46,699 nt of DNA, taken from positions 1 to 46,699 of the IMG/VR virus record IMGVR_UViG_3300046001_003124; one strand, 5' to 3'. The stretch is from a virus. Below are positions 962 to 45,832 of this stretch, in pieces. Each line of letters begins with the position of its first letter. Position 1 is the first letter of the stretch. Below the pieces are notes generated by a model. It searched no databases. It saw only the letters and a list, made by a program, of their open reading frames with translations, and was not told the origin of the DNA. Both the position numbers and the translations under genes were made by a program.

Positions 962-1126
962 CTACCGTATTAGAACGAGCAGCGCAGCGAGTCCAATGCT
1001 GCACCCCACGGCGGCGAGAACGAACAAGAAACGAATCTGGTGCTTGATGTCTGCCAGGGGGTCCTCCGCGATCCCGCCATGCTCTACCAGGTATGCAATC
1101 CGTTGCTTTAACTGCTGGTCGCTCAT
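962..1126 (-). CDS. Small membrane protein coupled to the repressor (54 aa)
   Basis: The ATG at 1126 overlaps the repressor stop as ATGA, so it is probably translated with the repressor. The first 30 residues are polar (MSDQQLKQRIAYLVEHGG), followed by one hydrophobic helix (about residues 32-53, FLFVLAAVGCSIGLAALLVL) ending in arginine. A terminator follows directly. Co-expression with a repressor and a single membrane span fits a lysogeny-stage exclusion or conversion protein, by analogy with rex-type genes; this is inference from context only. Confidence 0.7.
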   Translation of the reverse strand: MSDQQLKQRIAYLVEHGGIAEDPLADIKHQIRFLFVLAAVGCSIGLAALLVLIR

Positions 1127-1539
1127 TTCTTAATTAGTCCTACAAGTTTCTGAATGAAGGATTCGTCGACCCGGCCCGTGAGCTTGGTGTGCTCGTACGC
1201 AAGTGTGACCAGATTGCCGTAAGTTTTCGGGCCTATTTTGAGACCCGCGTCGCGTATCGCAGCAGCCACTGCACCCACGCAGATCCCAAGGGTCTCGTCG
1301 TCGACGGGCTTGCCTTTGCCTGTGTGCTCCTGGTCGAGCCATCCCACCGGCAATGACAGCCGGGTCTCGATGTCCCGTGCAACCTTCTCGCTGACCTCCC
1401 GGCTGGGGTTCGGGCCCACGAGCTGGGCGAGGTAGCTGCCGTTGCTGTGCTCCAGCTTCTTGGCCAGGCTGGTGGGGCCGCCCCATTCCTTCTGCAGGGT
1501 GCGCAGGTTGTCCCTGCGGATGTCGTAGACGTTTTTCAT
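1123..1539 (-). CDS. HTH phage repressor (CI-like, no peptidase domain)
   Basis: A 138-aa protein. Its N-terminal half is a helix-turn-helix region (about residues 9-65: RDNLRTLQKEWGGPTSLAKK, then SYLAQLVGPNPSREVSEKVA) ending in the LPVGWLD segment typical of short phage and transposon repressors. The C-terminal 60 residues are helical and contain no S24/LexA peptidase Ser-Lys dyad that I can see, so RecA-driven self-cleavage is not expected. It is divergent from the Cro-like gene at 1680, with 140 bp between them carrying operator-like sequence. It probably represses early promoters with the TAGCA palindrome; the target assignment is inferred. Confidence 0.8.
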   Translation of the reverse strand: MKNVYDIRRDNLRTLQKEWGGPTSLAKKLEHSNGSYLAQLVGPNPSREVSEKVARDIETRLSLPVGWLDQEHTGKGKPVDDETLGICVGAVAAAIRDAGLKIGPKTYGNLVTLAYEHTKLTGRVDESFIQKLVGLIKK

Positions 1540-2009: not shown

Positions 2010-2089
2010 CGTTCCTGCTCGGGTTGTGGGCGGGCGCCATGTTCGGCTACTTCCTCGCGTGCCTGATGTTCGTGGGGCGTGACGAATGA
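2006..2089 (+). CDS. 27-residue membrane micropeptide
   Basis: The ATG at 2006 overlaps the Cro-like stop (ATGA) and its own stop overlaps the next ATG (AATGA). The product, starting MTFLLGLWAGAMFGYFLACL and ending in charged GRDE, is essentially one transmembrane helix. Stop-start overlaps on both sides are the main evidence that it is translated. Function unknown; compare the 27-residue membrane ORF between TerS and TerL at 6046. Confidence 0.55.
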   Translation: MTFLLGLWAGAMFGYFLACLMFVGRDE

Positions 2090-2259
2090 TCACGACCCTG
2101 CACGTCGGCATGCGGGTGCTACTGGCCAGCGGCAACGTCGTGCTGCTGTTGCGCCGCGAACGGGCGCACTGGGCGTGCGAGTACACCGCACACGCCAAGG
2201 CGCGCGGCGAGGTCGAGTTCAGCGGGGTCTACCTGCGCCGGTGGGGTCGTCAAGTCTGA
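2086..2259 (+). CDS. Small basic hypothetical protein (57 aa)
   Basis: Begins at the ATG overlapping the stop of the 27-residue ORF. The product (MITTLHVGMRVLLASGNVVL, then LLRRERAHWACEYTAHAKAR) is arginine-rich and looks like a small beta-barrel or KOW/SH3-like fold (G-M-R-V-L-L-x-S-G-N-V-V-L-L), a form common among small phage DNA-binding proteins; the fold is a guess. It is the last gene before the promoter and structured RNA at 2278-2400. Confidence 0.55.
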   Translation: MITTLHVGMRVLLASGNVVLLLRRERAHWACEYTAHAKARGEVEFSGVYLRRWGRQV

Positions 2260-2277: not shown

Positions 2278-2306
2278 TAACCTTAGACTTTACAGTGTGC
2301 TAAAGT
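2278..2306 (+). promoter_or_regulatory. Rightward promoter of the structured RNA/primase operon
   Basis: Extended -10 TGCTAAAGT (TAAAGT 2301-2306) with only a weak -35 (TAACCT at 17-bp spacing). The same TGCTAAAGT occurs before TerS at 5569-5577. Transcription from here would begin just before the structured RNA at 2307-2400. Confidence 0.5.
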
Positions 2307-2400
2307 CGAGGCCTCACACCGTTAATTTGCAAGCCCTGGAGAGGGCCCCAACCTGTGCAAACAGGGGTGTGAGAACCGGGGTCCTCTCCAGGGCTTTTTT
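2307..2400 (+). ncRNA. Structured leader/attenuator or small RNA ending in a strong terminator
   Basis: AAGCCCTGGAGAGGGCCCC (2331-2349) pairs with 2378-2396 in a 19-bp stem with one G-U, followed by T6 (2395-2400): a very strong terminator. The 28-nt loop holds a further hairpin, CCTGTgcaaACAGG (2352-2365). CTCACACC (2313-2320), just upstream, is perfectly complementary to GGTGTGAG (2366-2373) inside that loop, and TTTGCA (2326-2331) to TGCAAA (2356-2361). Those pairs cross the terminator stem, so two mutually exclusive folds exist. It precedes the replication genes and may be an attenuator or a stand-alone regulatory RNA, as in P4-type immunity. Confidence 0.7.
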
Positions 2401-2414
2401 ACTGAAAGTCTTAC

Positions 2415-2651
2415 ATGCAGCATGTCGATTTCATACAACGCATCGCGTTGGCCATGGTCAATTCTTCCACCGGCGACTGGCATCCTGAAGCGCGGGCGGC
2501 CCAGGTTATGAAAAGCCCTTGCCCCCCATTCGAGAAAGATCCTACGGGCTGGGCAGCCTGGAAGCAGGAAGCGGAGGGCAGGATTACCTACCAGGAAGCG
2601 GAGGCTTTTGCCAAGGGGTTCAGGGCTGAATCAGAACGCTTTGAGGTGTAG
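2415..2651 (+). CDS. Hypothetical protein upstream of primase (78 aa)
   Basis: The ATG at 2415 has a GAAAG site and lies 14 nt beyond the terminator-like hairpin, so expression depends on read-through or on a start inside the leader. The sequence (MQHVDFIQRIALAMVNSSTG ... PCPPFEKDPTGWAAWKQEAE) contains a short W-rich helical segment resembling small phage proteins encoded near primases. It ends 2 nt before the primase ATG, implying co-translation. No function is assigned. Confidence 0.7.
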   Translation: MQHVDFIQRIALAMVNSSTGDWHPEARAAQVMKSPCPPFEKDPTGWAAWKQEAEGRITYQEAEAFAKGFRAESERFEV

Positions 2652-2653
2652 GC

Positions 2654-5176
2654 ATGACCGACACCATCAGCACCCTGCACCACACGACCAACCTGCTGGC
2701 CAAGACTTGGAAAGCCGACGGCACGATGAGTGCCTACGGCGACGCCAAGTTTTTCAAGCTGATCAAGCGCACGGTCAACAACCTGACCGAGCTGTCGTCA
2801 CTGCTCACGCAGATCGAAGCGCATCCCAAGGCGTGCGTGATCCGTGGGGAGTACGCGGGGCATGAGCTTGCACAGCAGCGCGACCCTGAGTTCCAGGCCG
2901 GCAAGGTGCGCCGGGCGCTCGACTACTTCGACGATCAGGCGTTGCACACGGTACTGATCGACGTCGACAAGTTCGAGCCGTTGACCGCCGACGCGCTAAC
3001 CGATCCGCTCATGGCGATCGACGAGTTTGTCTTCACCATGCTGCCCGAGCCCTTCCATGGCGCGGGCTACCACTGGCAGCTATCCAACAGCGCGGGCCAC
3101 CCCAGCAAGGGCACAGAGCTGCGCGCGCACCTGTGGTTCTGGTTGGACAGCCCACTGACTTCGGCGCAGCTCAAGGGCTGGGCCAAGGCCACGGGCCTGA
3201 AGGCTGACCTGGCGCTGTTCAACCCGGTGCAGGTGCACTACACGGCGCTGCCCGTGTTCGAGCCTGGGCAGGTTGACCCCTACGCGGTGCGCTCGGGCTT
3301 TGTGAGCGGGCTGTTCGGCGATGAGGTGGTGCTCGAGATTGACACCGCGGTGCTGGCCGAGGCACAGAGCCATGCCGGTGGGCGCGGCCAGCGGCTGCTC
3401 AACGTGGCCACCGAGGACCCGATCGCCCAGGCCCTGTACTCGGGCGGCCTGGTCAAGAGCCAACGGCGCGAGGGCGCGCTCAATATCGAGTGCCCATTCA
3501 GCAGCGACCACACCAGCGACTCGGGCGAGAGCTCCACCGTCTACTACCCACCCAACACCGGCGGGTATGCAGTGGGCCACTTCAAGTGCTTGCACGCCAC
3601 CTGCGTGGGTCGAGGGCGTGGGCAGTTCCTATCACGCCTTGGCGTTGACGACTGTGGGTTTGAGGATGAAACCTTGAACGACGCGCCAGCGTCGGACGAC
3701 GGCGAGCACAAAATCACCCGCAAGGGCATCCCCGAAGCCAAGCACCTGAGTACCGACCAAGCCAACGCCGGGCGCATTGTGTCCAAGTTTGGTAAGCGTC
3801 TGATTGTGGTGGCAGGCCAGTGGTATGCGTGGTCAGGCATGCGCTGGGAGAAGGACGACGGCGAGGTCTACCGCTACGCCTGCAAGCTGTCCCAACTGAT
3901 CCACGCCGAGGCGGATGGCTGGCGCGCGAAGAAGACGAACGCCGCCGAGGAGTCAGACCGCAATGGGAAGATCGCCGACGCGTTGACCAAGTGGGCGCAG
4001 AAGTCTGAGATGAAGTCGGCAATCGAGGCGGCCGTTGGCTTGGCCAAGAAGATGCTGACCGTCAACGAGAACCAGATCGACCGCAACCCCTGGTTGCTCA
4101 ACTGCCTGAACGGTGTGGTGGATCTGCGCACGGGCGTGATCAAAGCGCACGACCCCGATGACTTCATCACCAAGCTGGTGCCGCTCGAGTACGACCCGAA
4201 GGCGCGCAGCACGGCGTGGGACACCACGATCGCACGGGTGACTCTCGAGGAGGAGATGACCACGCGCCCCTTGGCTAGGTTCCTGCAGCGCTGGTTTGGA
4301 TACTGCGCCACAGGCAGCACGCGCGAGCAGGCGTTCGTTGTGCATTACGGGCAGGGCTCCAACGGCAAGAGCACGATCCTGGACACCGTGGCCGAGGTGA
4401 TGGGCGACTACGCCGCCACGGGCGCCCCAGGCCTGCTGGTGGGCAACGGGCGCGACCGTCACCCCACCGAGATCGCTGACCTGTTTGGTCGGCGCATGGT
4501 GACCAGCCACGAGACAGGGGAGGGCGGTCATCTCAAGGAGGACATGGTCAAGCAGCTCACCGGAAGCGACAAGGTCAAGGCTCGGTTCATGCGTGCCGAC
4601 TTCTTTGAGTTTGACCCCACGCACAAGCTGCAACTGCTCACCAACTACAAGCCGATCATCAAGGGCCAAGACAACGGCATCTGGCGCCGGGTCTTGTTGA
4701 TGCCCTACATGGCGCGCTTTGCCTCGAGCGAGGAGGTGGCCAGCGGCCGCGCTCACTTCGTGAAGGACACGCGCATCGCCGAGCGCTTGAAGGGGGAGAT
4801 CCAGGGCGTGCTTACCTGGGTGGTGGAGGGTGCGCGAATCTGGTTCCAGGATGGGCTGCAGGCGCCTGACGCCGTGCTTGCTGCGTCGAAGGACTACCAG
4901 GCCGAGCAAGACCGTGTTGGGCAGTTTGTGACCGAGTGTTGCGAGCTGGGCAAGGACTTCGAGACACCCCTTTGTGGTGACTTTGGTGGGGTGTACGACA
5001 CCTACCGTGCGTGGTGCGGGGAGGGCGGATTCATGGCTTTAAGCAAAATGCGGCTCGTTCAGGAACTTGAGCGGTTGGTGCCATATTTTGCAAAGACAGC
5101 GCAGAAGCAAACTGGATCTGCAGGAAAACGCAAGAACGTGAGCATGTTGGTCGGGATTCGGGTGCTGGAAGGCTAA
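2654..5176 (+). CDS. D5-type primase-helicase
   Basis: An 840-aa replication initiator. The N-terminal part looks like an archaeo-eukaryotic primase domain: acidic pair LIDVDKF (about 101-107) and the RAHLWFWLD strand with histidine (about 154-162). A zinc site follows (ECPF..H at about 279 with CLHATC at about 313-319). The C-terminal half is a D5_N/DUF5906 SF3 helicase with Walker A GQGSNGKST (about 565-573). Such proteins prime and unwind DNA at phage and plasmid origins. An iteron-like inverted repeat starts 3 nt after the stop, consistent with an adjacent origin. The DNA polymerase is in the opposite arm. Confidence 0.9.
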   Translation: MTDTISTLHHTTNLLAKTWKADGTMSAYGDAKFFKLIKRTVNNLTELSSLLTQIEAHPKACVIRGEYAGHELAQQRDPEFQAGKVRRALDYFDDQALHTVLIDVDKFEPLTADALTDPLMAIDEFVFTMLPEPFHGAGYHWQLSNSAGHPSKGTELRAHLWFWLDSPLTSAQLKGWAKATGLKADLALFNPVQVHYTALPVFEPGQVDPYAVRSGFVSGLFGDEVVLEIDTAVLAEAQSHAGGRGQRLLNVATEDPIAQALYSGGLVKSQRREGALNIECPFSSDHTSDSGESSTVYYPPNTGGYAVGHFKCLHATCVGRGRGQFLSRLGVDDCGFEDETLNDAPASDDGEHKITRKGIPEAKHLSTDQANAGRIVSKFGKRLIVVAGQWYAWSGMRWEKDDGEVYRYACKLSQLIHAEADGWRAKKTNAAEESDRNGKIADALTKWAQKSEMKSAIEAAVGLAKKMLTVNENQIDRNPWLLNCLNGVVDLRTGVIKAHDPDDFITKLVPLEYDPKARSTAWDTTIARVTLEEEMTTRPLARFLQRWFGYCATGSTREQAFVVHYGQGSNGKSTILDTVAEVMGDYAATGAPGLLVGNGRDRHPTEIADLFGRRMVTSHETGEGGHLKEDMVKQLTGSDKVKARFMRADFFEFDPTHKLQLLTNYKPIIKGQDNGIWRRVLLMPYMARFASSEEVASGRAHFVKDTRIAERLKGEIQGVLTWVVEGARIWFQDGLQAPDAVLAASKDYQAEQDRVGQFVTECCELGKDFETPLCGDFGGVYDTYRAWCGEGGFMALSKMRLVQELERLVPYFAKTAQKQTGSAGKRKNVSMLVGIRVLEG

Positions 5177-5326: not shown

Positions 5327-5563
5327 ATGCAGAAACTGGTAGCACTGAACGAAAACGGTCGGCGAATAGGGGAACACCACCCCTTGGCCAAGTTGACGGA
5401 CGCAGAGGTCGAGCTGGTGCATGGGATGCGCGAGGACGGCCTGACCTTGAGTGAGATCGCAAAGAAGATGGAAGTGACCAAGGGCTGCGTGTGGAAGATT
5501 CTCAACGGCTACCGCCGTGCCCAGTCCACTGCGCGCACGGTTCGTGTGTCCGTGTCCGGTTAG
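5327..5563 (+). CDS. Small HTH regulator, candidate late activator (78 aa)
   Basis: The ATG at 5327 has an AAGGG site. After a basic N-terminus (NENGRRIGEHHPLAKLTDAE) comes a sigma region 4/resolvase-type helix-turn-helix: LTDAEVELVHGMREDGLTLS, then EIAKKMEVTKGCVWKILNGY (about 23-62). It stands alone between the replication and late blocks. Its last codons contain the first GTGTCCGTG late-promoter element. Position and size fit a late-gene activator, but binding to that element is not shown by sequence. Confidence 0.75.
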   Translation: MQKLVALNENGRRIGEHHPLAKLTDAEVELVHGMREDGLTLSEIAKKMEVTKGCVWKILNGYRRAQSTARTVRVSVSG

Positions 5564-5577
5564 CACCTTGCTAAAGT
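5546..5577 (+). promoter_or_regulatory. Late promoter P1 (before TerS)
   Basis: GTGTCCGTG at 5546-5554, 16 bases, then CTAAAGT (TAAAGT 5572-5577, also an extended -10 TGC). First of six identically spaced elements. It overlaps the end of the HTH gene. The predicted start at about 5583-5585 coincides with the TerS ATG at 5585, so the mRNA is probably leaderless. Confidence 0.75.
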
Positions 5578-7791: not shown

Positions 7792-7992
7792 ATGTGCATG
7801 CCTGATGCCCCGAAGATACCGCCACCTGCGCCACCTCCCCAGGCGGTGAAGCAGCCCGACCAGGTGCAGGCCCTTGACGCCATGAAGCGCAACCGCAACT
7901 CCTCCGCAATGGGTGGTGGCTCTTTGCTCACCGGCCCGAGCGGTGTGTCCGCGGGCGCAGCTACAGGCAAGACCAGCCTGCTGGGTGGTTAG
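7792..7992 (+). CDS. Small virion-type protein with MGGGSLLTGPSG tail (66 aa)
   Basis: Proline-rich N-terminus (PKIPPPAPPPQAVKQP) and a C-terminus (SAMGGGSLLTGPSG, then ATGKTSLLGG) shared almost exactly with the next gene. Small proteins with this glycine-leucine tail occur just before portal genes in many podoviruses and are thought to be minor head or tail components. A GAGGA ribosome site precedes the ATG. The exact role is unknown. Confidence 0.75.
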   Translation: MCMPDAPKIPPPAPPPQAVKQPDQVQALDAMKRNRNSSAMGGGSLLTGPSGVSAGAATGKTSLLGG

Positions 7993-7994
7993 CC

Positions 7995-8288
7995 GTGTGC
8001 ACCCCCAACAAGCTCGAGAACTCCCTTGATGGCTTCAACGCCATGGACGCCATAACCAACCCCCTCGACCCGTTGGCCAACGTGCGCAAGAAGTACAACA
8101 CGCCCGCTGCGGATGCACCTATCGCCCGCGGCACTAACGACGGCCAGACCTACCGAGGAGCGGAAGCTGCCCCCGCAATGGGTGCACGCCGCCGCAACAA
8201 CTCGGCCATGGGTGGTGGCTCTCTGCTCACCGGCCCGAGTGGCATCGACACAGCAGCCACCGGCAAGACTTCACTACTGGGCGGATAA
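7995..8288 (+). CDS. Paralogue of the preceding small virion-type protein (97 aa)
   Basis: GTG start 2 nt after the previous stop. Both proteins begin with M-C and end with the same RNxSAMGGGSLLTGPSG...ATGKTSLLGG block (about residues 67-97 here); the middle is unrelated. This is a tandem duplication or domain copy. The stop overlaps the portal ATG (TAATG), so all three should be co-translated. Probably a minor structural or assembly protein. Confidence 0.75.
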   Translation: MCTPNKLENSLDGFNAMDAITNPLDPLANVRKKYNTPAADAPIARGTNDGQTYRGAEAAPAMGARRRNNSAMGGGSLLTGPSGIDTAATGKTSLLGG

Positions 8289-18605: not shown

Positions 18606-20237
18606 ATGGCAACCGTCCCCACCTATGGCACCCCCCGGGTGCAAGAGCAGGCGCTGCGCCCGAACTACCAGAACAACGTCGACGTCAGTAGCGGCAGCCG
18701 CGCACTGGCGCAAAGTCTGGGCCAGGTGTCCGAGGTCGTCGACCGCATCGCTACGCGCGACGCCGAGACCAAGGCCAACGCTGCCGACACCGAAATCTCA
18801 GCCGGCTGGCTGCAGTGGGACGCCGAGAACCGCAAGAAGTACCAAGGCGGCAACATCGACGGCTACGCCCCCGCCGCTAAAGAGTGGTGGGACAAGGCCG
18901 CGCAGACCTACGGCGAGAAGCTCGACCCGATGGCCAAGGCCATGGTCACCAAGAACCTGATGCGCCGGCAAGCGGTGTCGATGGGCTCCGTGGCCCAGCA
19001 CACTGAAGCCGTCAAAGAATCCCACGCCGACGAAACCGCCGTCGCCAACATCAACACCACGATCCAGTTCGGTGTCACCACCGGCGACGTGGCGGGTGCG
19101 TCCGCACAGGTGCGCAAGCTCGCGTCTGAAGTCGGGGCACGCAAGGGCTGGACCACCGAGCAGGTGCAGGCCGAGACCGGCAAGAACCTGTCAGCCCTGC
19201 ACCTGGCGCAGATCAGCAAGCTGGCCGAGTACGACCCGCAGAAGGCGCAGGCCTACTACGACGCGAACAAGGAAGAGGTGGGCTTCGCCCAGCAGCCCCG
19301 CGTCGAGGAGGTGCTGCGCAAGGAAGTGGACAACCAGTTCGCCATCACCTTTGCCGGTCAGAACGCGGGCAAACCCCTGGCCGAACAGATCAAGCTCGCC
19401 GCCGATATCACGGACCCCAACCGGCGCGAGAAGGCGATCCACGAAATCAAGCTCAACCACGCCCTGATCAAGGAAGCGGAGGCCGAGAAAGAACGCACCG
19501 CCTCCGATAAGGCGTGGCAACTAGTCGGCCAAGGTAAGCGCGTGCCCGAGGCCATCCTCGCCACCATGGACGGCAAGGGCCGCGTGCAACTGCAGGAACA
19601 CCTGCAGGCGCGGGCCGATCGCCTGGCCGTTGGCAAGCCGGTCAAGACCAACATGGCCACCTACATCGACCTGCGCGAAAAACTCGCCGCGGGCGAGAAG
19701 GTGAACCTGAAGGCATACACCGAGAAAGTCGGCGGCGCCCAGATGGAGCAGCTGCTCGACATCCAGTCCGCAGCCAGCAAGCCCGGCACCGCCAAGCAAG
19801 ACAGCATGCTCACCGATGAGGGGCGCATCTCCACCGCGCTCACCGGCATGGGTGTCGATAAGAGCAAGGACCCAGACACTGCGGCCAAGTTCAGCATTGA
19901 AGTCGACCGCCGCGTGCGTGCGCTGTCCGCATCGAAGGGGGACAAACCTGTCACCCCCGATGAGAAGCAGAAGATCGTCGACGGCGTATCGCTCGACAAG
20001 GTGTTCGTGGACGAGTGGGGCCGCGACCCTGAGAAGCCTCTGTTCCAACTGACACCGGACGAACTGAAAAAAGCCTACGTCACCGTGGGGGGCAAGAACA
20101 TCCCGGTGGCCAGCGTACCCGCGGCCGACCGTGCCGAGATCATCCGTGGACGCCGTGCGCGTGGGCTGTCAACCACTGAGCAGTCGGTCGTCGAGACCTA
20201 CGTCAAAGCAAACAAGAACCCCGAAGGGAAATGGTAA
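18606..20237 (+). CDS. Internal virion protein C-like (T7 gp15-like)
   Basis: 543 aa, almost entirely helical and charged. The N-terminus (QNNVDVSSGSRALAQSLGQV) and SAGWLQWDAENRKKYQGGNI (about 62-81) resemble gp15-type core proteins, which form the periplasmic ejection tube. The stop overlaps the ATG of the giant protein (TAATG), implying balanced synthesis of the two core proteins. Confidence 0.82.
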   Translation: MATVPTYGTPRVQEQALRPNYQNNVDVSSGSRALAQSLGQVSEVVDRIATRDAETKANAADTEISAGWLQWDAENRKKYQGGNIDGYAPAAKEWWDKAAQTYGEKLDPMAKAMVTKNLMRRQAVSMGSVAQHTEAVKESHADETAVANINTTIQFGVTTGDVAGASAQVRKLASEVGARKGWTTEQVQAETGKNLSALHLAQISKLAEYDPQKAQAYYDANKEEVGFAQQPRVEEVLRKEVDNQFAITFAGQNAGKPLAEQIKLAADITDPNRREKAIHEIKLNHALIKEAEAEKERTASDKAWQLVGQGKRVPEAILATMDGKGRVQLQEHLQARADRLAVGKPVKTNMATYIDLREKLAAGEKVNLKAYTEKVGGAQMEQLLDIQSAASKPGTAKQDSMLTDEGRISTALTGMGVDKSKDPDTAAKFSIEVDRRVRALSASKGDKPVTPDEKQKIVDGVSLDKVFVDEWGRDPEKPLFQLTPDELKKAYVTVGGKNIPVASVPAADRAEIIRGRRARGLSTTEQSVVETYVKANKNPEGKW

Positions 20238-23200
20238 TGGTCAGTAAATACGACGCGATCCTTGACGAGGAGCAGGGAAGCGCCCCGGCGACTGGCCCCA
20301 GCAGCTACGACACGGTGCTCGACCAAGAGGTCCAGATGCAGCAACGGGCTGCGCGTACGGTGTTCGAGAAGGCGCTGGCGGTTAACCCCGACCAAGCGGC
20401 CAGCTCCAAGAAACTGATGACCACCACAGGCCTGCCTCTGGCCGTGGTGGAGCGCAACCTCGACGAGGTCAAACGCAAGGACCAGGCCCGCATGCTGGAC
20501 CTGGCGCAGATGGCACAGGATTCTCCCGTCCTGGCGCGTCAGATCATGGACCCAAGTTTCACCAACCAAGCGCACGACGACGTCAGCACCCTCGGCAGTC
20601 TTGAGCAGTTCCTGCGCGACACCGGCGGGTCCATGAAAGCCGGCGTATTCAACGCCAGCAAAGGCGCTGCCGGGCTGTTCCGTGCGGGTGCCGAGCTCAT
20701 CGCGCCCATACTCGATCCGCTCGCTGGAACGATCTTGCCAGAGAACCCGCTGCGTCGTGTCGCTGCTGGGTTTGCAGAAATGGGAGCCGGAGCCGGCGCC
20801 ATCGCCAAGGCCGCCACACCAACAACCACCGGCGTGCTGTCGGGGGGTTTCCAGTCGGGTGTTCAATCCTTGACGCAGAACCTGCTCACCCTGCCCGCCG
20901 CGTTCCTGCCGGGTGGACAAGCTGCTGCGCTGACGGGCATGGTCGGCTTCACCGGCGGCCAGTCCTACCAGGACGCCCGCGAGAAAGGCCTGTCAATGTC
21001 GCAGGCGCTGCCGTTCGCCGCCTCGCAGGCTGCGATCGAGTACGCCACCGAGAAGATGCCGCTGGAGCAGTTGATCGGCGGCATCAAGGCGGGTGCCCCC
21101 CTCCTGCAGACCATAGCCAAGCAGATGGCGCTGGAGATACCGGGCGAACAGGTCGCCACCATCTTGCAGGATCTCAACGAGTGGGCGGTGCTCAACCCTG
21201 AAAAGACATTCCGGTCTTATCTGGAAGAACGCCCCAACGCTGCAGCGCAGACCCTGATCGCCACGATCGTCGGCACCGGCGGCAACATCCTGGTGGCCAA
21301 AGGGGTGGAAGCCGCCACCAAGCGCCTGATGGGTGACGCCTACGACGCAGGCCAAGCCGACACCCACGCGGCACAGTTACAGGACGCATTCAAGAACGCG
21401 CTCGACTCGAAGCTGCGCGAACGCAACCCCGACGACTTCCGCACGCTCATACAGAAGATGGCCGACAACACCGACGGCGCACCCAAGGAGGTGTACGTCG
21501 ATGCCGAGGTGCTGAACCAGCTTGCTCCAGAATTGATAGCACAACTCCCAGAGTCCGTGCGGGCCGCACTGCCCGACGCGCTCGCGGCCAACGACGTGGT
21601 GGCGATCCCTGTTGGGGATGTGCTCACCGTCGCACCCGGCACGCCGATGGAGCAGATGCTGGTCGAGCACGCTCGCATCGGTGACGTGCGCGCCATGAGC
21701 CAGTTCGAGGCTAAAGAAGCCGGCGCCAAGGCGCAGGAGTTCCTCGCGCAAGAATCCCAGCGCGTGATCCAGCAGGCTGTTGACCAACGGGCCACGCAAG
21801 AATCACACGACCGCGTCAAGCAGACGCTGCTCGACCAGCTGAACTCTGTCGGGCGAAATCGCACTGCGGTGAATGAGACCACGGCCACGCTCTACGCGTC
21901 GCTGTACACCACCCTGGCGGGCCAGCTCGGCATCACGCCCGAGGCTGCGTTCGCGCTGCACGGCGTTAACGTCACAGGCAAGACAGGGCAGGGCGGGGTG
22001 CTCAACACCGGCGGCATGGCGGGCGAGATGTCCGTCGAGGGCTACCACTTCAGCGCCGCTGACCGCACGACGCTCTCCACCGCAATGTACGGCACGGGTC
22101 TCAAGGGCAGTGCACGCGATGAAATCATGAACCACCCCGACCAGCGCCTGAAAGAGCGCCTGTCGTTTTACTTCGACAAGGGCACGGGCATCCGCCCCGA
22201 GTCTGGTGTGGGTGGCCGCGCACACCGGGTGCAACTGTCGGGCGTGTACGACGCCGACGCAGATCCGCTGAAGCTGCGCACAGGCAACGCCCGCGAGCTT
22301 GAGTCCAAACTGCTGGACCTGGGCTACAAGGGTTACGCCAACCGCATGGACGGCACACAGCCTGGCCAGGTCATCATGCTCGGTGCGCAGAACTTCCAGC
22401 CCGAGCTGCTGGGTGCGTTATCGCAGATCACTACCGGCCAGCGCGTGGCGCCGATCGCAGCCGCTGCACCGCAGTGGCAGACCCAGGCGAGCGGTGAGCC
22501 TGCCATGCTCGCGGCCAAGCTCGAGCGCATGCAGGCGATGCCCGCCTGGGCTGGCTACGACCTGCGCATCGAGGGGCGTGAGCTTCAGTCGATGCAGAGG
22601 CAAGACACCTACGCGCAGCAGTCGCAGGCACTGCAGACTGAGATCGAGCAGGCCGGCGGCAAGGTCAACGACATCCTGCAAGTCGACCAGCTGATCAGCA
22701 GCGAAGAGATCCCGACCATCACGTTGCAAGACCTGATCGGCCTGGACATCTTCCCGACGATCGCCGACCGCACAGCCGCCGCCGCGGTTTACTCGGGCAT
22801 CGACTCTTCCCGCCTGGACGTGGCAATCCCGCTGCTGGGCGGCCCCCTGTTCCCCCTGCGCGAGACCAACGTCGAAGCAGGTGTGGTGTGGGCCAACCGC
22901 GGCAAGGGCGTCACCAGCCAGAAGGCTGCCAAGCTCAAAGCCGGCGCCAACTACATGATGGTGCTGCTCGGCGATGCCGACATGCACCAATCGAACAGCA
23001 CCGTGGCCGCCGCGGTCATGGGCACGTTAGAGGCCTGGCAACGCGACGGGCGTCTGGGCGTCGAACATGTTGAAGCCCTGGCCGAACTCGTGCGCACCGC
23101 ACCCTCCGCCGATACCGTCGTCAAGAGCTATCTGGAGAACTTCCCAGGCTTTGACGACGCCGCGATCATGCACGCCTATATGGACGGCATGTCATTCAAT

Positions 23201-26200
23201 GCGCGCAAGCGCGTGATCGAACTGCTGGCGTCCAAGGAAGCCATGGTGCTGGGCGCGCCACCCATGAACCTGATTCTGGACGCCACCCGCGAGCCCTCGA
23301 TGGCAGGCCACCGCTGGGGTGACGGCGTCATCCTGCTCGAGGTGGACCAGACCAACACCCAAGTCGAGCTCGGCACTGAAGGCACGACCGCACACCCCGA
23401 CTTTCCGGTCGGCATCCGCGGTCGCGTGGTCGGTAAGCTCAATGCCCCGATCAGCTGGCAGGTGCTGTGGCAGGACTGGCTCAACGCCAACAACGGCGCG
23501 TCCCCTCGCCGCGCGTTCGAGCTGTCCAAACCCGTCGTCACCGTGACGCAAGAACTGATCGACCGCATCGGCCCGATCAACCAGACCAACATCGACAGTG
23601 CACGCCAGGCCCGCCTCGCTGCCGACTTCGCCGCCGACAACTGGCGCCAGACCGGCGTGCCGGTGAAGCAGGGCGGCGCGTCGCCACAGGAGTTTGTTGA
23701 CGCCATTCTGACAACCGCAGCGCGCCCGGTGCTCACCGAGTATTCGCTCGACCAGGTCAAGCAGGGCGCCAAGGACGGCAGCTTCAAGGTGTTCCAGCTC
23801 GGTGCCGATGGCCGAATCTTCTTCGGCATGAAGTACGGGGACCCGGGCTACGCCGCCGACTACGGCATCAACATCCCCGAGATCACGGCCAACGAAGTGG
23901 CGCTGGTCTCTGTGGTCAACAACGAGCAAGGTGCCCGCGGTATCGGTGCACCTGCCGTGGTGCTCAAGGCGCTGCAGGAGGGGGCCACGGTGCTGGACTG
24001 CTTCGCGGTCAAGAACGAAAAGTTCACCGACGGCTTCCTGCCCGAGATCTATGCAGCGTTCGGATTCGAGAAAGTTGCAGAAATACCTTTCGCACCGGAG
24101 TATTACAGCGCGCAAAAGTTAGCAGATGCTGTAAAATTCTGGAAAGACACCACCCCGGGTTTCGACCCTGCAACCAACGGCTACCCGCCGCTGGTCATTA
24201 TGAAATGGAAGGGCACCGATGCCGACAGAACAGACATCATCAATCGATACCTACGCGATGGCGTTGCAGGTGTCCTCGCTCGAGGAGCTTCAGAAAGTTC
24301 CACGGCCAACGCTGATCGGGTTCTTTCATCTGTTGGAGCAGAAGGCGCTGCGCAAGGGGGCACCTCTGACGCACAACGAGATCCTGGGAATCAAGGAGAT
24401 AGCGCTGGAGCACGTATCGCATCCCGCGCTCGCGGCACTGTCCAAGGCATTGCCGGCCTCAACGACGGCGAACTCCGAAACCTCGGACTCACCGTTGCCG
24501 ACCGAACCGCAGTCCAACGCGGACTCGGCGCCCCCGTCACAGACAACGCCCCTGCCGTAGCCCAAGCACCCGCAGGACCCGAGACCCTAGAGCAAGGCCC
24601 CCGCGGCACGTTCAACCCCAAGACCTTCGAGCTCGCGTTAAACGAGGGCTCGAACATGTCCACCGTGCACCACGAGATGGGGCACGCGTACCTCGAGATC
24701 ATCACCAAGATCGCCAGCGAGCCCGGCGCACCACAGGGCATCATCGACCAGGTCGAGCGCTTCCTGAAGTGGCAGGGCGTTGCAGATCTGGCGACATGGC
24801 AGGCGATGACGCTGGACCAGAAGCGCCCACACCATGAGGCACTGGCCGAGAGCTACGAGCATTACCTGCTGACAGGCAAGGCCCCGAGCCTTGAACTGCA
24901 GCCCCTGTTCCGCAAGCTCAAGGCCTACATGCTCAACGCCTACAAGACGCTGAAGGCGTTCTTCGAGGCCAACCCCAACGTCGCGCAGAAGCTGCCACCC
25001 GAGATGGTGCAGTTCTATGACCGCATGCTGGCCAGCGAGGAGCAGATCGCGCAAGCCGAGGAGGTGGCTGGGCTGCTGCCCGAGCAGGACGCCACCGCCG
25101 AGGCAGTTGAGAAGCTGACCGCGCGTTCGCTGCGGGACCTGAAGTGGACGGTGAACGCCCGCAACAGGGAGATCAAGAAGCTGCAGGCGCAGGCCAAGGC
25201 CTTGCGCAAGGGCATCGAAACCGAGGTCACCGCCGAGGTGAACGCGATGCCCGAGTTCCAAGCCAAGGAGATGCTGGACAAGACCCGCAAGGAAAACAAA
25301 GAACAGCTCAACGACACCGAACTGGCCATCGTTGCCGACGCCTTCCAGTACGCGAGCGTCGAGGAGATGCTCCGTGCCATCGACGGCGCTGGCAAGAAGG
25401 CCGACGTGATCGAGGGTATGACCGACCAGCGCATGCTCGAGGAGCACGGCGACCTGATCGACCAACGTGCGGTCGAGGCCGCGGCCAACGAGGCCGTGCA
25501 CAACGAAGCCCGTGCCCGATCGCTGGCCACCGAACTGCGCAGCCAAGCCGAGATGCTGAACCCGCGCACCGACACGGGTGAGGTGAACGCCAAGGGCAGC
25601 AAGATCACGGTCAACGCGATCGTCGAGGCGGCCAAGCAGTTCGCTGCCAACGTGGTCGCCCGTACCCCGCTCAAGGATCTGAAGGCCAAGGCCTGGCAAC
25701 ACACCGCGGCCGAGCGCCGCGCTGGCAAGCGTTGGACCGAGGCTACCGCCGCTGGCAAGACGCAGGACGCGGTCAAGGCCAAGCAGGACCAGGTGCTCAA
25801 CAACGCCGCCGCCAAGGCTGCGCTGGACGCGCAGACCGAGATGCGCAAGATCCTCGAGTTCTTCAAGCGCGTGATCAAGGACAACAACGAGAAGGTGGTC
25901 GACAAGGGCCGCGACCCTGACGTCGTCAACGCAGCCCGTGCGGTGCTGGCAGCCTACGGTGTCGCGCCAAAGGCGGGCAAGACTGCGCTGGAGTACATGG
26001 ACCTGGTCGAGAAGAACGACCCTGCCATGTTCGCAGCTCTGCAGCCCTCTGTGCAGGGTGCGCTCAACATGGCCCAGCCCCTGGACGCGCTGACCATGGA
26101 CGAGCTGCGCGCCTTGCACGAGGAGATCCAGGGCATGTGGCACCTGGCCAAGCGCTCGCGCCAGATGGAGATTGACGGCAACATGCTGGACATGCAAGAC

Positions 26201-28339
26201 GCCGAGGACGAATTGCAGGCGCGCATGCAGGTGCTGGGTGTGCCCCTCACCATGCCTGGCGACTCCGGTGCTGTGACCAAGGCCGAGGAGCGGGTGCGCA
26301 AACTGCAGGGCGTGCGCGCCTTGCTGCGCCGGGTGGAGCAGTGGGCCGAGGGGATGGGCAAGCCGTTCACCCGTCTGGTGTTCCAGCCGATCAAGGACGC
26401 CGCCGACGCCTACCGTGCCGACCGCACGGTGTACCGCAAGAAGTACCAGGCGCTGGTGGACAAGGTCGCGCCAGCACTGACCAAGGGCCTGATCGAAGCG
26501 CCCGAACTGGGTTACACCTTCGGTAAGGGCCACAACGGCATCGGCCACGCCGAGCTGCTGCACGCGATCCTGCACACCGGCAACGAGAGCAACAAGCGCA
26601 AGCTGCTGCTCGGCCGCGGCTGGGCCCTCGAGAACGCAGACGGCACACTCAACACCGACCGCTGGGACGCGTTCCTCAAGCGCGCCCACGACACGGGCCT
26701 GCTGAACAAGGCGCACTACGACTTCGCCCAGGGTGTGTGGGATCTGCTGGAAGAAACCAAACCGCTGGCGCAGAAGACGCACCGCGACGTGTTCGGTCGC
26801 TACTTCGCCGAGGTCACCGCCGACAGTTTCACCACACCGTTCGGCGACTACGCTGGCGGCTACGTGCCAGCGCAAGCTGACCCGCGCATCGTGCAAGACG
26901 CTGACCTGCGCAAGCTGACCGAGTCTGAAAACGAGAACATGAGCTTCAGTTTCCCAAGCACCAGCAAGGGATTCACCAAGGGCCGCGTCGAGTACAACCG
27001 CCCGCTGCTGCTGGACCTGCGCACGATCGGCCAGCACCTGGACAAGGTGCTGCTGTTCTCGCACATGGAGCCTGCCGTGCGCGATGTCAACAAGCTGCTG
27101 TCCCGCAAGGGCGTGGCCTACTCGCTGGGCCGCATCGACCCGGCTGCCTACTCAGGCATGCTGACCCCCTGGCTGAACCGCAGCGCACGTCAGGTCGTCG
27201 AGACCCCGGTGGTGGGCGACGGCGGGATCTCGCGCGTGCTGTCCGCAGCCCGCGGGCGTGCAGGCATGGCACTGATGTTCGCCAACGTCAGCAACACGAT
27301 CCAGCAGCTCACCGGCTTCAGCACGGCGGCGATCAAGGTGAAGCCCGCCAGCATGATGGCCGCCACCGCGCAGTTCATCAGTGGGCCGAAGAAGATGGCG
27401 CAGGCCGTCAGCGAGGCCAGCGTGTTCATGGCCGGGCGCATGGACAATGAGATCAGCGCGATAAATGACGCGATGGACGCGATCCTGCTGGACCCGAACC
27501 TGTACGAGAAGGCGCAGGCCTGGAGCCAGAAGCATGCGTACTTCATGCAGACGGCGATGGCCAACACCATGGAGCCGATCATCTGGACCGGCGCCTACAA
27601 CGACGCCCTCGAGCGTGGCGACAGCGAACGCGACGCGGTGCGCTTTGCCGACAGCGTGATCCGCACCACACAGGGCTCGACCCTGCCAGAGGACGTGAGC
27701 CGAATCGAGACCGGCCCGGCCTACGCGCGAATCTTCACGCAGTTCATCGGCTACTTCAACATGATGGCCAACACCAACGCCACCGCGTTGCAGCAGATCT
27801 CGCAAGAGATCGGGCTGAAGAAGGGCGCCGGCAAGGCGATCGGCGTCGTGACGCTGGGCCTGCTGATCCCGCTGTGGGTGGCCGAAGCGATTGCACAGGC
27901 CATGCGCGGCGGTCCTGACGATCCCGACAAGGACGGCTACCTCGATGACTGGCTGGCCGCCGTGTTCGGCATGGGCACGATCAAGGGCACGCTGGCCATG
28001 GTGCCGTTCATCGGGCAGCTGGCCAACGCCGGGATCAACCGATTCAACGGCAACCCCGCCGACGACAAGGTGAGCCTGTCCCCCGCGGTCAGCTTGCTGG
28101 AGTCAGCGGTGGGCGTGCCGGTCGACGTGTACAAGGCGATCACCGGCGATGTGAACAAACGCAACATGGTGCGGGACGTGGCCAGCGCCGTTAGCTTGGC
28201 CACCGGGCTGCCAGCGATCGCCATCGCGCGACCACTGGGCTACCTGGCGGGCGTGGAGGACGGCAAGATCAAACCCACGGGCCCTGTCGATGCAACACGC
28301 GGTGCGATCACAGGAACACCGAGCCCCGCCAGTAAGTAG
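20237..28339 (+). CDS. Giant polyvalent internal virion protein (gp16-like) with ART-like and metallopeptidase domains
   Basis: About 2,700 aa. I start at 20237, the ATG overlapping the previous stop; 20231 is an alternative. Order: repeated YDxxLDxE at the N-terminus; Ala/Gly hydrophobic region (about 150-370); ADP-ribosyltransferase-like polyvalent domain (about 600-720, FYFDKGTGIRPESGVGGRAH); GNAT-like region (about 1155-1324); low-complexity linker (1325-1440); zinc metallopeptidase with HEMGH (1479-1483) and downstream AESYEHY (1538-1542) as possible third ligand; coiled coil (about 1600-2000); conserved C-terminus with a hydrophobic helix (about 2530-2555). It should be ejected with the DNA and act on the envelope or host proteins. 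Enzyme activities are predictions. Confidence 0.85.
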   Translation: MVSKYDAILDEEQGSAPATGPSSYDTVLDQEVQMQQRAARTVFEKALAVNPDQAASSKKLMTTTGLPLAVVERNLDEVKRKDQARMLDLAQMAQDSPVLARQIMDPSFTNQAHDDVSTLGSLEQFLRDTGGSMKAGVFNASKGAAGLFRAGAELIAPILDPLAGTILPENPLRRVAAGFAEMGAGAGAIAKAATPTTTGVLSGGFQSGVQSLTQNLLTLPAAFLPGGQAAALTGMVGFTGGQSYQDAREKGLSMSQALPFAASQAAIEYATEKMPLEQLIGGIKAGAPLLQTIAKQMALEIPGEQVATILQDLNEWAVLNPEKTFRSYLEERPNAAAQTLIATIVGTGGNILVAKGVEAATKRLMGDAYDAGQADTHAAQLQDAFKNALDSKLRERNPDDFRTLIQKMADNTDGAPKEVYVDAEVLNQLAPELIAQLPESVRAALPDALAANDVVAIPVGDVLTVAPGTPMEQMLVEHARIGDVRAMSQFEAKEAGAKAQEFLAQESQRVIQQAVDQRATQESHDRVKQTLLDQLNSVGRNRTAVNETTATLYASLYTTLAGQLGITPEAAFALHGVNVTGKTGQGGVLNTGGMAGEMSVEGYHFSAADRTTLSTAMYGTGLKGSARDEIMNHPDQRLKERLSFYFDKGTGIRPESGVGGRAHRVQLSGVYDADADPLKLRTGNARELESKLLDLGYKGYANRMDGTQPGQVIMLGAQNFQPELLGALSQITTGQRVAPIAAAAPQWQTQASGEPAMLAAKLERMQAMPAWAGYDLRIEGRELQSMQRQDTYAQQSQALQTEIEQAGGKVNDILQVDQLISSEEIPTITLQDLIGLDIFPTIADRTAAAAVYSGIDSSRLDVAIPLLGGPLFPLRETNVEAGVVWANRGKGVTSQKAAKLKAGANYMMVLLGDADMHQSNSTVAAAVMGTLEAWQRDGRLGVEHVEALAELVRTAPSADTVVKSYLENFPGFDDAAIMHAYMDGMSFNARKRVIELLASKEAMVLGAPPMNLILDATREPSMAGHRWGDGVILLEVDQTNTQVELGTEGTTAHPDFPVGIRGRVVGKLNAPISWQVLWQDWLNANNGASPRRAFELSKPVVTVTQELIDRIGPINQTNIDSARQARLAADFAADNWRQTGVPVKQGGASPQEFVDAILTTAARPVLTEYSLDQVKQGAKDGSFKVFQLGADGRIFFGMKYGDPGYAADYGINIPEITANEVALVSVVNNEQGARGIGAPAVVLKALQEGATVLDCFAVKNEKFTDGFLPEIYAAFGFEKVAEIPFAPEYYSAQKLADAVKFWKDTTPGFDPATNGYPPLVIMKWKGTDADRTDIINRYLRDGVAGVLARGASESSTANADRVLSSVGAEGAAQGGTSDAQRDPGNQGDSAGARIASRARGTVQGIAGLNDGELRNLGLTVADRTAVQRGLGAPVTDNAPAVAQAPAGPETLEQGPRGTFNPKTFELALNEGSNMSTVHHEMGHAYLEIITKIASEPGAPQGIIDQVERFLKWQGVADLATWQAMTLDQKRPHHEALAESYEHYLLTGKAPSLELQPLFRKLKAYMLNAYKTLKAFFEANPNVAQKLPPEMVQFYDRMLASEEQIAQAEEVAGLLPEQDATAEAVEKLTARSLRDLKWTVNARNREIKKLQAQAKALRKGIETEVTAEVNAMPEFQAKEMLDKTRKENKEQLNDTELAIVADAFQYASVEEMLRAIDGAGKKADVIEGMTDQRMLEEHGDLIDQRAVEAAANEAVHNEARARSLATELRSQAEMLNPRTDTGEVNAKGSKITVNAIVEAAKQFAANVVARTPLKDLKAKAWQHTAAERRAGKRWTEATAAGKTQDAVKAKQDQVLNNAAAKAALDAQTEMRKILEFFKRVIKDNNEKVVDKGRDPDVVNAARAVLAAYGVAPKAGKTALEYMDLVEKNDPAMFAALQPSVQGALNMAQPLDALTMDELRALHEEIQGMWHLAKRSRQMEIDGNMLDMQDAEDELQARMQVLGVPLTMPGDSGAVTKAEERVRKLQGVRALLRRVEQWAEGMGKPFTRLVFQPIKDAADAYRADRTVYRKKYQALVDKVAPALTKGLIEAPELGYTFGKGHNGIGHAELLHAILHTGNESNKRKLLLGRGWALENADGTLNTDRWDAFLKRAHDTGLLNKAHYDFAQGVWDLLEETKPLAQKTHRDVFGRYFAEVTADSFTTPFGDYAGGYVPAQADPRIVQDADLRKLTESENENMSFSFPSTSKGFTKGRVEYNRPLLLDLRTIGQHLDKVLLFSHMEPAVRDVNKLLSRKGVAYSLGRIDPAAYSGMLTPWLNRSARQVVETPVVGDGGISRVLSAARGRAGMALMFANVSNTIQQLTGFSTAAIKVKPASMMAATAQFISGPKKMAQAVSEASVFMAGRMDNEISAINDAMDAILLDPNLYEKAQAWSQKHAYFMQTAMANTMEPIIWTGAYNDALERGDSERDAVRFADSVIRTTQGSTLPEDVSRIETGPAYARIFTQFIGYFNMMANTNATALQQISQEIGLKKGAGKAIGVVTLGLLIPLWVAEAIAQAMRGGPDDPDKDGYLDDWLAAVFGMGTIKGTLAMVPFIGQLANAGINRFNGNPADDKVSLSPAVSLLESAVGVPVDVYKAITGDVNKRNMVRDVASAVSLATGLPAIAIARPLGYLAGVEDGKIKPTGPVDATRGAITGTPSPASK
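24219..24560 (+). CDS. Possible overprinted gene inside the giant gene (113 aa, +1 frame)
   Basis: Open in the +1 frame from an ATG with GGAAGGG five bases upstream, a better ribosome site than most genes here have. The product (ALQVSSLEELQKVPRPTLIG, then FFHLLEQKALRKGAPLTHNE) looks like a globular helical domain for 70 residues before a Ser/Thr/Pro tail. The giant protein in the same bases reads as a low-complexity Ala/Gly/Arg/Ser linker, so the nested frame seems the more constrained one. A one-mismatch copy of the TAGCA palindrome lies 88 bp upstream. Confidence 0.5.
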   Translation: MPTEQTSSIDTYAMALQVSSLEELQKVPRPTLIGFFHLLEQKALRKGAPLTHNEILGIKEIALEHVSHPALAALSKALPASTTANSETSDSPLPTEPQSNADSAPPSQTTPLP

Positions 28340-36349: not shown

Positions 36350-36416
36350 AATCACGATTCCGTTCAGGGTTGAATCGCCGGCAGGTCAGCGGGTTGGGGT
36401 GCGCTTTCTGCACCGA
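36056..36416. repeat. Pair of near-identical 26-bp repeats (36056-36081 and 36391-36416)
   Basis: The two 26-mers differ at one base and encode the same Gly-Ala-x-Ser-Ala-Pro-Gln-Pro C-terminal motif at the ends of the genes at 36029 and 36364. A weaker third copy lies near 35678-35697. Together with the boundary repeats they frame each small gene as a unit. Confidence 0.7.
36347..36367 (-). repeat. Cassette boundary repeat, copy 3
   Basis: CTGAACGGAA...ATTATG, carrying the ribosome site of the 106-aa zinc-finger gene and overlapping the stop of the 285-aa gene. Confidence 0.75.
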
Positions 36417-37221
36417 CGAAGTTGATCTTGAAGCGCTGGTATTTGGAGCGGTGTTCCTGCTCGCAGTAGCGGCGAAACGCAGCCTCGTGCAGTTCGCCCG
36501 GCAACATGTCGAAGTCAGTGCCGCACGTTCCGCCTTTCCACGATCCTTTCTCAGGACCAACCTCGGAGGAAAAGTTGAGGTCCAGCGAGCGGCGGGTCAT
36601 CGGCTTGCAGAACACCGACAACCACTTAAACCACCCCTCACCGAAGCGCCACTCACGTTCGTCGATCCTAGTTGTGACGACGAGGCGCTGGCCGTCGTAG
36701 TCATCGAACTCGAACTTGACGGCAGGGCACGCATCCTTGACTGCCTGATGGGCGTCCCAGGTGTCACGGAAAGGAAACCCCCGGGGGCGAGCCCACTCCG
36801 TCCAGAAGTGCTTGCCTGCCGCGTCGTAGAAGCTCGTGCGGATGTGGCGCCACTGCGTCCATGGCAGGTGCCACGACCAGCTCTGCGTGGTCAAACTGTC
36901 GTGCGTCTGGGCGCCGAGGAAGAGCTGCAGGAAGCCCTCGTGCAGTGAGAACCCGTACTCGCGGGCGTGCACGTCCCAGTAGCCGGCGTCGGGGGACTTC
37001 GCCCAATCGTAGTGAGAGACGTCGACCCAGCGGCGCCACGGTTGCATGAGCTTCGGCAGGCGCAGGCGGGCCACCCAGCCTAGGGCGTAGCCGGTGACAT
37101 GGTTGTGCGGGTAGCCCTCATCTCCCCCTCCCGTGCTGAAGACGAGCCGCAGCGGGTTCCAACTGGACCGTGCGTAGGTCAGGCCCCCGATGTGGCGGTC
37201 GTTGTCTGTTAGTCGAGTCAT
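36364..37221 (-). CDS. Hypothetical phage protein (285 aa)
   Basis: ATG at 37221 with an AGAAAG site (a TTG two codons upstream is less likely). Tryptophan-rich and soluble: RSSWNPLRLVFSTGGGDEGY, LMQPWRRWVDVSHYDWAKSP, REYGFSLHEGFLQLFLGAQT. Large unassigned proteins of this kind recur in phages; the pattern looks conserved, but I know no function for it. It ends in the shared GAESAPQPADLPAIQP tail. First of the run of cassette genes. Confidence 0.78.
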   Translation of the reverse strand: MTRLTDNDRHIGGLTYARSSWNPLRLVFSTGGGDEGYPHNHVTGYALGWVARLRLPKLMQPWRRWVDVSHYDWAKSPDAGYWDVHAREYGFSLHEGFLQLFLGAQTHDSLTTQSWSWHLPWTQWRHIRTSFYDAAGKHFWTEWARPRGFPFRDTWDAHQAVKDACPAVKFEFDDYDGQRLVVTTRIDEREWRFGEGWFKWLSVFCKPMTRRSLDLNFSSEVGPEKGSWKGGTCGTDFDMLPGELHEAAFRRYCEQEHRSKYQRFKINFVGAESAPQPADLPAIQP

Positions 37222-37279
37222 TTTCAATTCTTTCTAGGTGTTGCTTTTGCGCACTCAGTACGCAATCGTCTGTACATTG

Positions 37280-43941: not shown

Positions 43942-43957
43942 ATTGTAGCGGATGCTA
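43942..43957 (-). promoter_or_regulatory. Early leftward promoter with operator variant
   Basis: TACAAT at 43947-43942 overlapped by TAGCGGATGCTA (43946-43957), a one-base variant of the palindrome. No good -35. Directs the DUF2815/DNA polymerase pair; begins 6 bp beyond the DUF2800 stop. Confidence 0.65.
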
Positions 43958-43962
43958 AAGCG

Positions 43963-45807: not shown

Positions 45808-45832
45808 GTTGTTTCCTTTAGTTAGTGATAAA

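Follow-up and report, generated by a model that had tools for sequence, protein, structure and literature searches.

A putative C4-like antisense RNA in the leader of a podophage replication operon

We have identified, ahead of the replication genes of a podophage, a conserved RNA in which a long stem (P1) encloses two hairpins (P2 and P3) that show in their loops two stretches, b′ and a′, complementary to segments b and a at the 5′ end of the very same transcript. In all, 57 distinct elements of this kind occur in IMG/VR viral contigs, including that of the window, i.e., the one whole IMG/VR virus record analysed here (46,699 bases), whose portal protein is closest, amongst named ones, to that of Bordetella phage BPP-1 (54% identical). 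Judged from sequence comparison, the element seems likely to be the leader of the replication operon and to encode an antisense RNA resembling C4 and CI. The best reading is that of a new C4-like antisense RNA family that would gate the replication operon and would probably set the specificity of superinfection.

The element of the window and its surroundings

In the window, the RNA element lies between a repressor/Cro-like gene pair and the primase gene (Table 1), and the same gene order is extant in L102, an integrase-bearing record. The Cro-like protein resembles proteins annotated as Cro-like antirepressor or antirepressor HTH-XRE; C-terminal to its HTH, it carries a conserved cysteine cluster, CxxCxxCxxxxxC, which is unusual among Cro proteins. 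The primase/helicase is presumed to be the gene under control of the element. Searches of profile families with the 78-amino acid ORF that separates the two gave no match. The ORF behind the element differs, without any relation in sequence, among otherwise similar phages (the window, L001, L002, L003, L018, L020 and L032/L048), so that the cargo site varies behind a conserved and apparently regulated RBS.

Table 1. Features of the early region of the window and of its RNA element.
Feature	Position	Strand	Remarks
Repressor-like HTH gene, divergent	1123-1539	-	phrog_12107 transcriptional repressor, 4.6e-14
Cro-like HTH protein, 109 aa	1680-2009	+	Opens the early operon upstream of the RNA element
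Conserved 57-aa ORF	2086-2259	+	Immediately 5′ of the RNA element
TGCTAAAGT, extended -10-like promoter element	2298-2306	+	Read from sequence
Segment a, CTCACACC	2313-2320	+	5′ target site; 8 bp perfect with a′
Segment b, TTTGCA	2326-2331	+	Second 5′ target site; 6 bp perfect with b′; final base shared with P1 stem
P1 stem, 5′ arm	2331-2349	+	19-bp stem with 2378-2396; folding, family covariation
P2 hairpin, CCTGT-GCAA-ACAGG	2352-2365	+	Displays b′
b′, TGCAAA	2356-2361	+	In P2 hairpin loop
P3 hairpin, GGT-GTGAGA-ACC	2366-2377	+	Displays a′
a′, GGTGTGAG	2366-2373	+	Within P3 hairpin
P1 stem, 3′ arm	2378-2396	+	Folding, covariation
T6 run after P1 stem	2395-2400	+	Possible intrinsic terminator in code IV
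Putative RBS (GAAAG) through start codon of next ORF	2404-2417	+	"a2"/"seqC" equivalent
78-aa ORF, first gene 3′ of the RNA element	2415-2651	+	Variable cargo
Replication primase/helicase, D5_N	2654-5176	+	P4-alpha-like architecture; phrog_16950 DNA primase, E = 0; PF08706 D5_N, 5.8e-30

A note made earlier from the letters of this DNA had placed a promoter-like site ahead of the element; this site is present, and most homologues have TGCTA[AC]AGT or a close variant 5′ of a, about equally far from it. Transcription likely starts at about 2311-2314, as far as can be read from the sequence. A scan for the sigma-70 consensus upstream of the window element yielded no good -35. The -10-like motif, with TTTACA 9 nt upstream, also occurs at the promoter of the Cro gene (1655-1670) and elsewhere in the window. 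Furthermore, a partly palindromic motif, TTTACAnnnTGCTAAA (TTAGCA..TGCTAA), is found in the window at 889-904, 1655-1670, 2289-2304, 5560-5575, 43944-43959 and 45817-45832, amongst others; its 10 matches compare with 2.7 expected, and none of 100 shuffles reached that number. The sites include the promoters of the Cro gene and of the RNA, and the motif is perhaps the operator of the divergent repressor.

The 19-bp stem and the T6 run described in the earlier note are there base for base, the first two T of the run pairing with the AA that opens the P1 stem, and the two perfect complementarities (a with a′, b with b′) are present as it had given them. What it overlooked are the inner hairpins displaying b′ and a′, as well as the complementarity of a′ to the RBS in most homologues. 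The predicted fold of the window element has an energy of -57.1 kcal/mol (z = -4.65), and none of 200 shuffled sequences folded as well. Taken alone, the window's a:a′ and b:b′ pairings are not beyond chance (duplex-energy shuffle p of about 0.07 each), nor is its RBS:a′ pairing significant (p = 0.42), a weak complementarity of 8 bp, two of them G-U, between TCTTACAT in the RBS region (2409-2416) and the GTGTGAGA part of a′. Because GC-rich DNA made the duplex-energy statistics too noisy, exchange tests on helix length were used in their place (see below). Since the complementarities within a single phage are only marginal against chance, the case rests on the comparison of homologues. Inside the window, there are no further a+b-like targets above chance, and the new covariance model gave no credible match to a second copy of the element.

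Outside the early region, three other features of the window were noted. A homologue of the CBASS inhibitor Acb3 (PF25187, E = 6e-70), an anti-defence gene, is located at 36364-37227 on the minus strand. Two neighbouring ORFs before the portal gene (7792-7992 and 7995-8288) specify a near-identical C-terminal peptide (NSSAMGGGSLLTGPSG...TGKTSLLGG and NNSAMGGGSLLTGPSG...TGKTSLLGG). A 2702-amino acid ORF (20231-28339) within the structural region possibly sits where BPP-1 has its giant virion protein, bbp10.

One architecture, several codes

Homologues were gathered first through proteins related to the primase, to the Cro-like protein and to the product of the 57-amino acid ORF, and then by two motif searches; 39 of the 57 distinct elements come from protein-anchored loci and are thereby free of motif bias. 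Amongst the protein-anchored loci that lack an element of the family, one has an unrelated stem and eight have none, several of these being truncated. The shared layout consists of a promoter, segments a and b, a P1 stem of 17-23 bp that encloses P2 (b′ in the loop) and P3 (a′ in the loop), and the RBS of the next gene. The window element and all six representatives that we folded adopt the P1-P2-P3 shape, each presenting b′ in the loop of P2 and a′ within P3. By this comparison, structure, not sequence, is what the element conserves. We have placed it in the replication-gene operon in the window, L001-L003, L023/L024, L102 and L011.

The a′ and b′ sequences define at least five codes, the labels being assigned from the loop motifs. 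They are code I (a, GCCAAACC; b, CTGTCC), code II (a, GCCAACC; b, CGTGT), code III (a, GCCAACC; b, AACCTA) and code IV, which includes the window (a and b as in Table 1) together with L216, L261 and L262; the remainder are a mixture of I and II and the singletons L102, L155, L176 and L221.

Covariation statistics were computed on 49 distinct rows. In the P1/P2/P3 structure, 97.9% of the cells are paired and 22 of the 25 pairs show changes on both sides; the covariation score is 0.71, as compared to 0.22 in shuffled and at most 0.17 in slid alignments. Across the family, all 19 P1 stem pairs change on both sides and the pairs of P3 (helix 3) covary, while P2 covaries even inside code IV (CCCGT/ACGGG in L216, CTGGG/CCCAG in L261, CCGGG/CCCGG in L262). 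Mismatches in the P1 stem are G-U in 44 instances and A-C in three, which identifies the transcribed plus-strand RNA as the selected structure.

The cross-pairings behave in the same way. Compensatory changes are seen in the close relatives L261 and L262 (GTCACAC/GTGTGAC in a/a′; CTGCA/TGCAG in b/b′), distant homologues retain the pairings with unrelated sequences, and the b:b′ helix exists in 18 distinct sequence versions in which 102 of 108 positions are Watson-Crick. The claim of the earlier note that a structured RNA with a conserved alternative pairing precedes the replication genes is thus upheld by the homologues: the alternative pairing was not lost where the stem is kept, and it covaries.

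In the exchange test, the helix that an outside segment forms with its own loop is compared in length with those formed with the loops of other codes. For the 39 protein-anchored elements, own and permuted lengths were 7.26 and 5.59 for a:a′ (P = 0.00095), 5.66 and 3.80 for b:b′ (P = 0.00015), and 8.91 and 6.61 for RBS:a′ (P = 0.00065). On the full set, a:a′ was also longer in the own element (P = 0.001), as was b:b′ (P ≤ 0.0002 at the type level); the RBS:a′ test is biased there, two search patterns having demanded a′ plus the RBS motif, and was, therefore, repeated on the protein-anchored loci. The RBS:a′ pairing is clear in codes I-III. In homologues, the helix of GAAAGCGCCAA or GAAAGTCGCCAA with a′ extends to as many as 13 bp, a length attained in L003, L105 and L155. 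In code IV it is weak, and the match of the window is not common to L216, L261 and L262; occlusion of the RBS cannot, therefore, be claimed for the window. An equivalent of b2, i.e., a target for b′ at the RBS of the next gene, was not seen.

A new covariance model, built from 16 elements, scores the window element with 59.9 bits and its reverse strand with 33 bits. It finds a remote homologue, L011, at the expected position in a 60.9-kb phage whose primase is 34% identical. A concerted change from GCCAA/TTGGC to GCCAG/CTGGC has there affected a (GCCAG), a′ (CTGGC) and the RBS site (GCCAG). The model gave no credible score on BPP-1, Limnohabitans phage DC33, segments of phage P1, P4, or segments of Curvibacter phage PCA1, Caulobacter phage GB2A and Pseudomonas phage AUS531phi. 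No element was found at L195 and L222, where the Cro-like gene is present, nor in the cognate regions of BPP-1 and PCA1. DNA similarity searches of named phages with the elements of the window and of codes I and II gave none, and neither did a search of plasmid DNA with the L102 element. The sole match in 398 sampled genomes of one proteobacterial phylum, L264, was rejected, since its surroundings are not those of a phage and its long hairpin is a chance one.

In the main group, near-complete records contain no tyrosine integrase, serine recombinase or ParA, so that for these phages lysogeny, and with it prophage immunity in the classical sense, is no more than a possibility. The element also occurs in three records that have an integrase and a different backbone (those of L029, L034 and L045), and the record of L102 combines repressor, Cro-like gene, integrase and element.

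Exchange of codes between phages

Closely related phages may carry different codes. Between L023 and L024, identity is 97-100% over the 600 bases that lead up to and include the promoter, 44-57% in the element itself and 87-94% downstream; the RBS segment changes along with the code. In L040 and L157, the code is swapped on an upstream region that is 88-96% identical. L032 and L048, for their part, are 92-100% identical upstream and through the element, and diverge directly 3′ of it, which makes the junction a site of cargo-gene exchange as well.

On a tree of the Cro-like protein from 45 phages, based on 109 columns, we counted 23 changes of code as compared to 24.0 with shuffled labels; there is, thus, practically no linkage between the code and a gene only a few hundred bases away. 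Such exchange fits selection for immunity specificity, and reassortment of codes is what would be expected if diversifying selection acted on an immunity specificity; other causes, e.g., a hotspot of recombination with no role in immunity, are also conceivable.

Likeness to C4-type RNAs and alternative explanations

C4 is a short RNA released through RNase P processing, and CI of P4, with seqA and seqC, confers superinfection immunity on the lysogen. The C4 RNA of phages P1 and P7 (RF01695; targets, RF03163 c4-a1b1) measures some 65-80 nt and has a long P1 stem enclosing P2 and P3; the annotated layout in phage P1 (promoter, a1, b1, c4, a2, b2, icd) is broadly also that of the new element, in which segment a is the counterpart of a1 (seqA in P4) and segment b that of b1. 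Common to both is the complementarity of a′ and b′ to paired upstream sites (a1, b1); at the RBS of the gene that follows, the new element has a clear match to a′ in codes I-III and a weak one in the code IV of the window. Short stretches, a′ and b′, determine the specificity of C4 and would do so here. The two differ in where these stretches lie: in phage P1 c4, the loop of P3 holds b′ (CACTAAC), the linker 3′ of P3 holds a′ (CTGTCAA) and P2 has a UUCG loop, whereas the new element presents b′ in the loop of P2 and a′ within P3. They differ also in the likely target, which is the replication operon instead of icd/ant. In P4, the C4 match lies within the operon of primase alpha, and the new element is likewise in a replication operon.

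C4 works via a pair of displayed stretches, and cross-action is restricted by slight alterations of a′, four altered nucleotides being enough between phages P1 and P7 (PMC5320573). P4 CI RNA pairs with upstream seqA and downstream seqC, and premature termination silences the replication genes of P4 (PMC4825925). The single promoter of IsrK in prophage Gifsy-1 yields a short RNA by termination and a long mRNA by readthrough, the short one acting on the long one (PMC4825925); IsrK, unlike the repression proposed here, activates translation of its target, and the Rfam isrK model has no match in the window. The early region of BPP-1 shares the gene plan, in which one arm has cI, Cro, a cargo gene and primase and the second arm has polymerase, exonuclease and helicase; an integrase is present in BPP-1, whereas a search with the new model gave no such RNA.

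The Rfam C4 model (curated threshold, 45 bits) recognises phage P1 c4 with 68.8 bits and P4 CI with 74.9 bits, both members of the family, and gave no match at E ≤ 10 to the window, L079, L037, L131, L043 or L110; conversely, the new model does not detect phage P1 c4 or P4 CI. Searching Rfam with the window and homologue elements, at gathering and at permissive thresholds, returned only chance microRNA-type matches to the hairpin. This agrees with the earlier note, which had recognised no known RNA family, and its comparison with the RNA immunity of P4 also gains support, the CI RNA of P4 being found by the C4 model. The element would most likely act like C4/CI while lying outside RF01695.

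In the mechanism that we propose, transcription would begin just 5′ of segment a and a hairpin RNA of about 65 nt would be freed by termination or processing. Acting in trans, this RNA would pair with further copies of the transcript, at their a/b and their RBS, by which the replication operon would be silenced under repression or at a late stage of infection, as would incoming phages of the same code; the code would, thus, decide which transcripts the antisense RNA recognises. The a:a′/b:b′ fold of the nascent transcript, before completion of P1, may be a competing "on" conformation. Within one molecule, this fold and the full P1 stem are exclusive because b abuts or overlaps P1 without a linker; P1 does not, however, preclude pairing between molecules, and, by its geometry, the hairpin display of b′ and a′ would suit an antisense RNA acting between molecules. 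We propose, more tentatively, that this is a new antisense RNA family with a sequence model unrelated to C4/CI, whose at least five exchangeable codes are superinfection-immunity alleles, reshuffled among podophages independently of the Cro-like gene.

The same parts could serve a purely cis-acting, co-transcriptional attenuator, in which early a:a′/b:b′ pairing delays P1 and the polymerase passes the U-tract, while P1 terminates once a/b are occupied, with no separate small RNA. The nascent RNA's own a/b can indeed pair with a′/b′ in cis, and the mutually exclusive folds are conserved: the energy minimum of full-length leaders is the P1 hairpin in 56 of 58, and in leaders cut before the 3′ arm of P1 it contains the outside-to-loop pairing in 51 of 58. 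The T6 run of the window has its like in the three code-IV relatives (T-runs of at least six after the hairpin in L216 and L261; CTTCTTTT in L262). However, code-swapped leaders pair early nearly as often as own ones (81% versus 89%), a modest preference for which we count this test as support for feasibility only; L133, L028, L031 and L037 are devoid of the U-tract with hairpin, b-pairing and all else kept; and the conserved display of b′/a′ and the RBS:a′ match would be superfluous, all of which makes such an attenuator unlikely. The terminator/antiterminator switch suggested in the earlier note survives in so far as the alternative pairing excludes the stem; as a general mechanism it does not, given the four leaders without a U-tract and a P1 fold that, in the full RNA (about -50 to -60 kcal/mol), is far stabler than the alternative. 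That the hairpin is an ordinary intrinsic terminator of the upstream Cro operon, with incidental cross-pairings, would account for the long, GC-rich hairpin of the window and the T6 behind it, but is contradicted already by three covarying pairings beyond the stem, as well as by the lack of conservation of the U-tract, the promoter-like site 5′ of the hairpin and the RBS directly 3′; we regard it as very improbable.

The antisense RNA could also damp the primase within one replicating phage, controlling copy number or timing without immunity, as in plasmid rep-leader antisense systems; the location before the primase gene and the absence of an integrase from the main group would suit this. Near-random redistribution of codes among close relatives is, however, not predicted by such control itself (although incompatibility-type selection could bring it about), and in the integrase-bearing record the element adjoins the repressor/Cro switch, so that we consider this explanation quite improbable. 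Adjacency to the primase gene might equally hint at a structure working at the DNA level, e.g., a single-strand origin or a primase loading site; given the excess of G-U over A-C in the P1 stem, the low score of the reverse strand and an RBS pairing that makes no sense in DNA, this is hardly conceivable.

The best reading, thus, remains a C4-like antisense RNA. Known RNA-based phage immunity comprises a few well-studied enterobacterial cases (c4 of phages P1/P7 and CI of P4), all within one Rfam family; the element seems to represent another family that follows the same logic, carried by no named phage relative as far as we have searched. The covariance model, together with the a/b/a′ grammar, allows the family to be sought elsewhere, and the sister pairs L023/L024 and L040/L157, with different codes behind near-identical upstream regions, render an immunity boundary of a few nucleotides directly testable.
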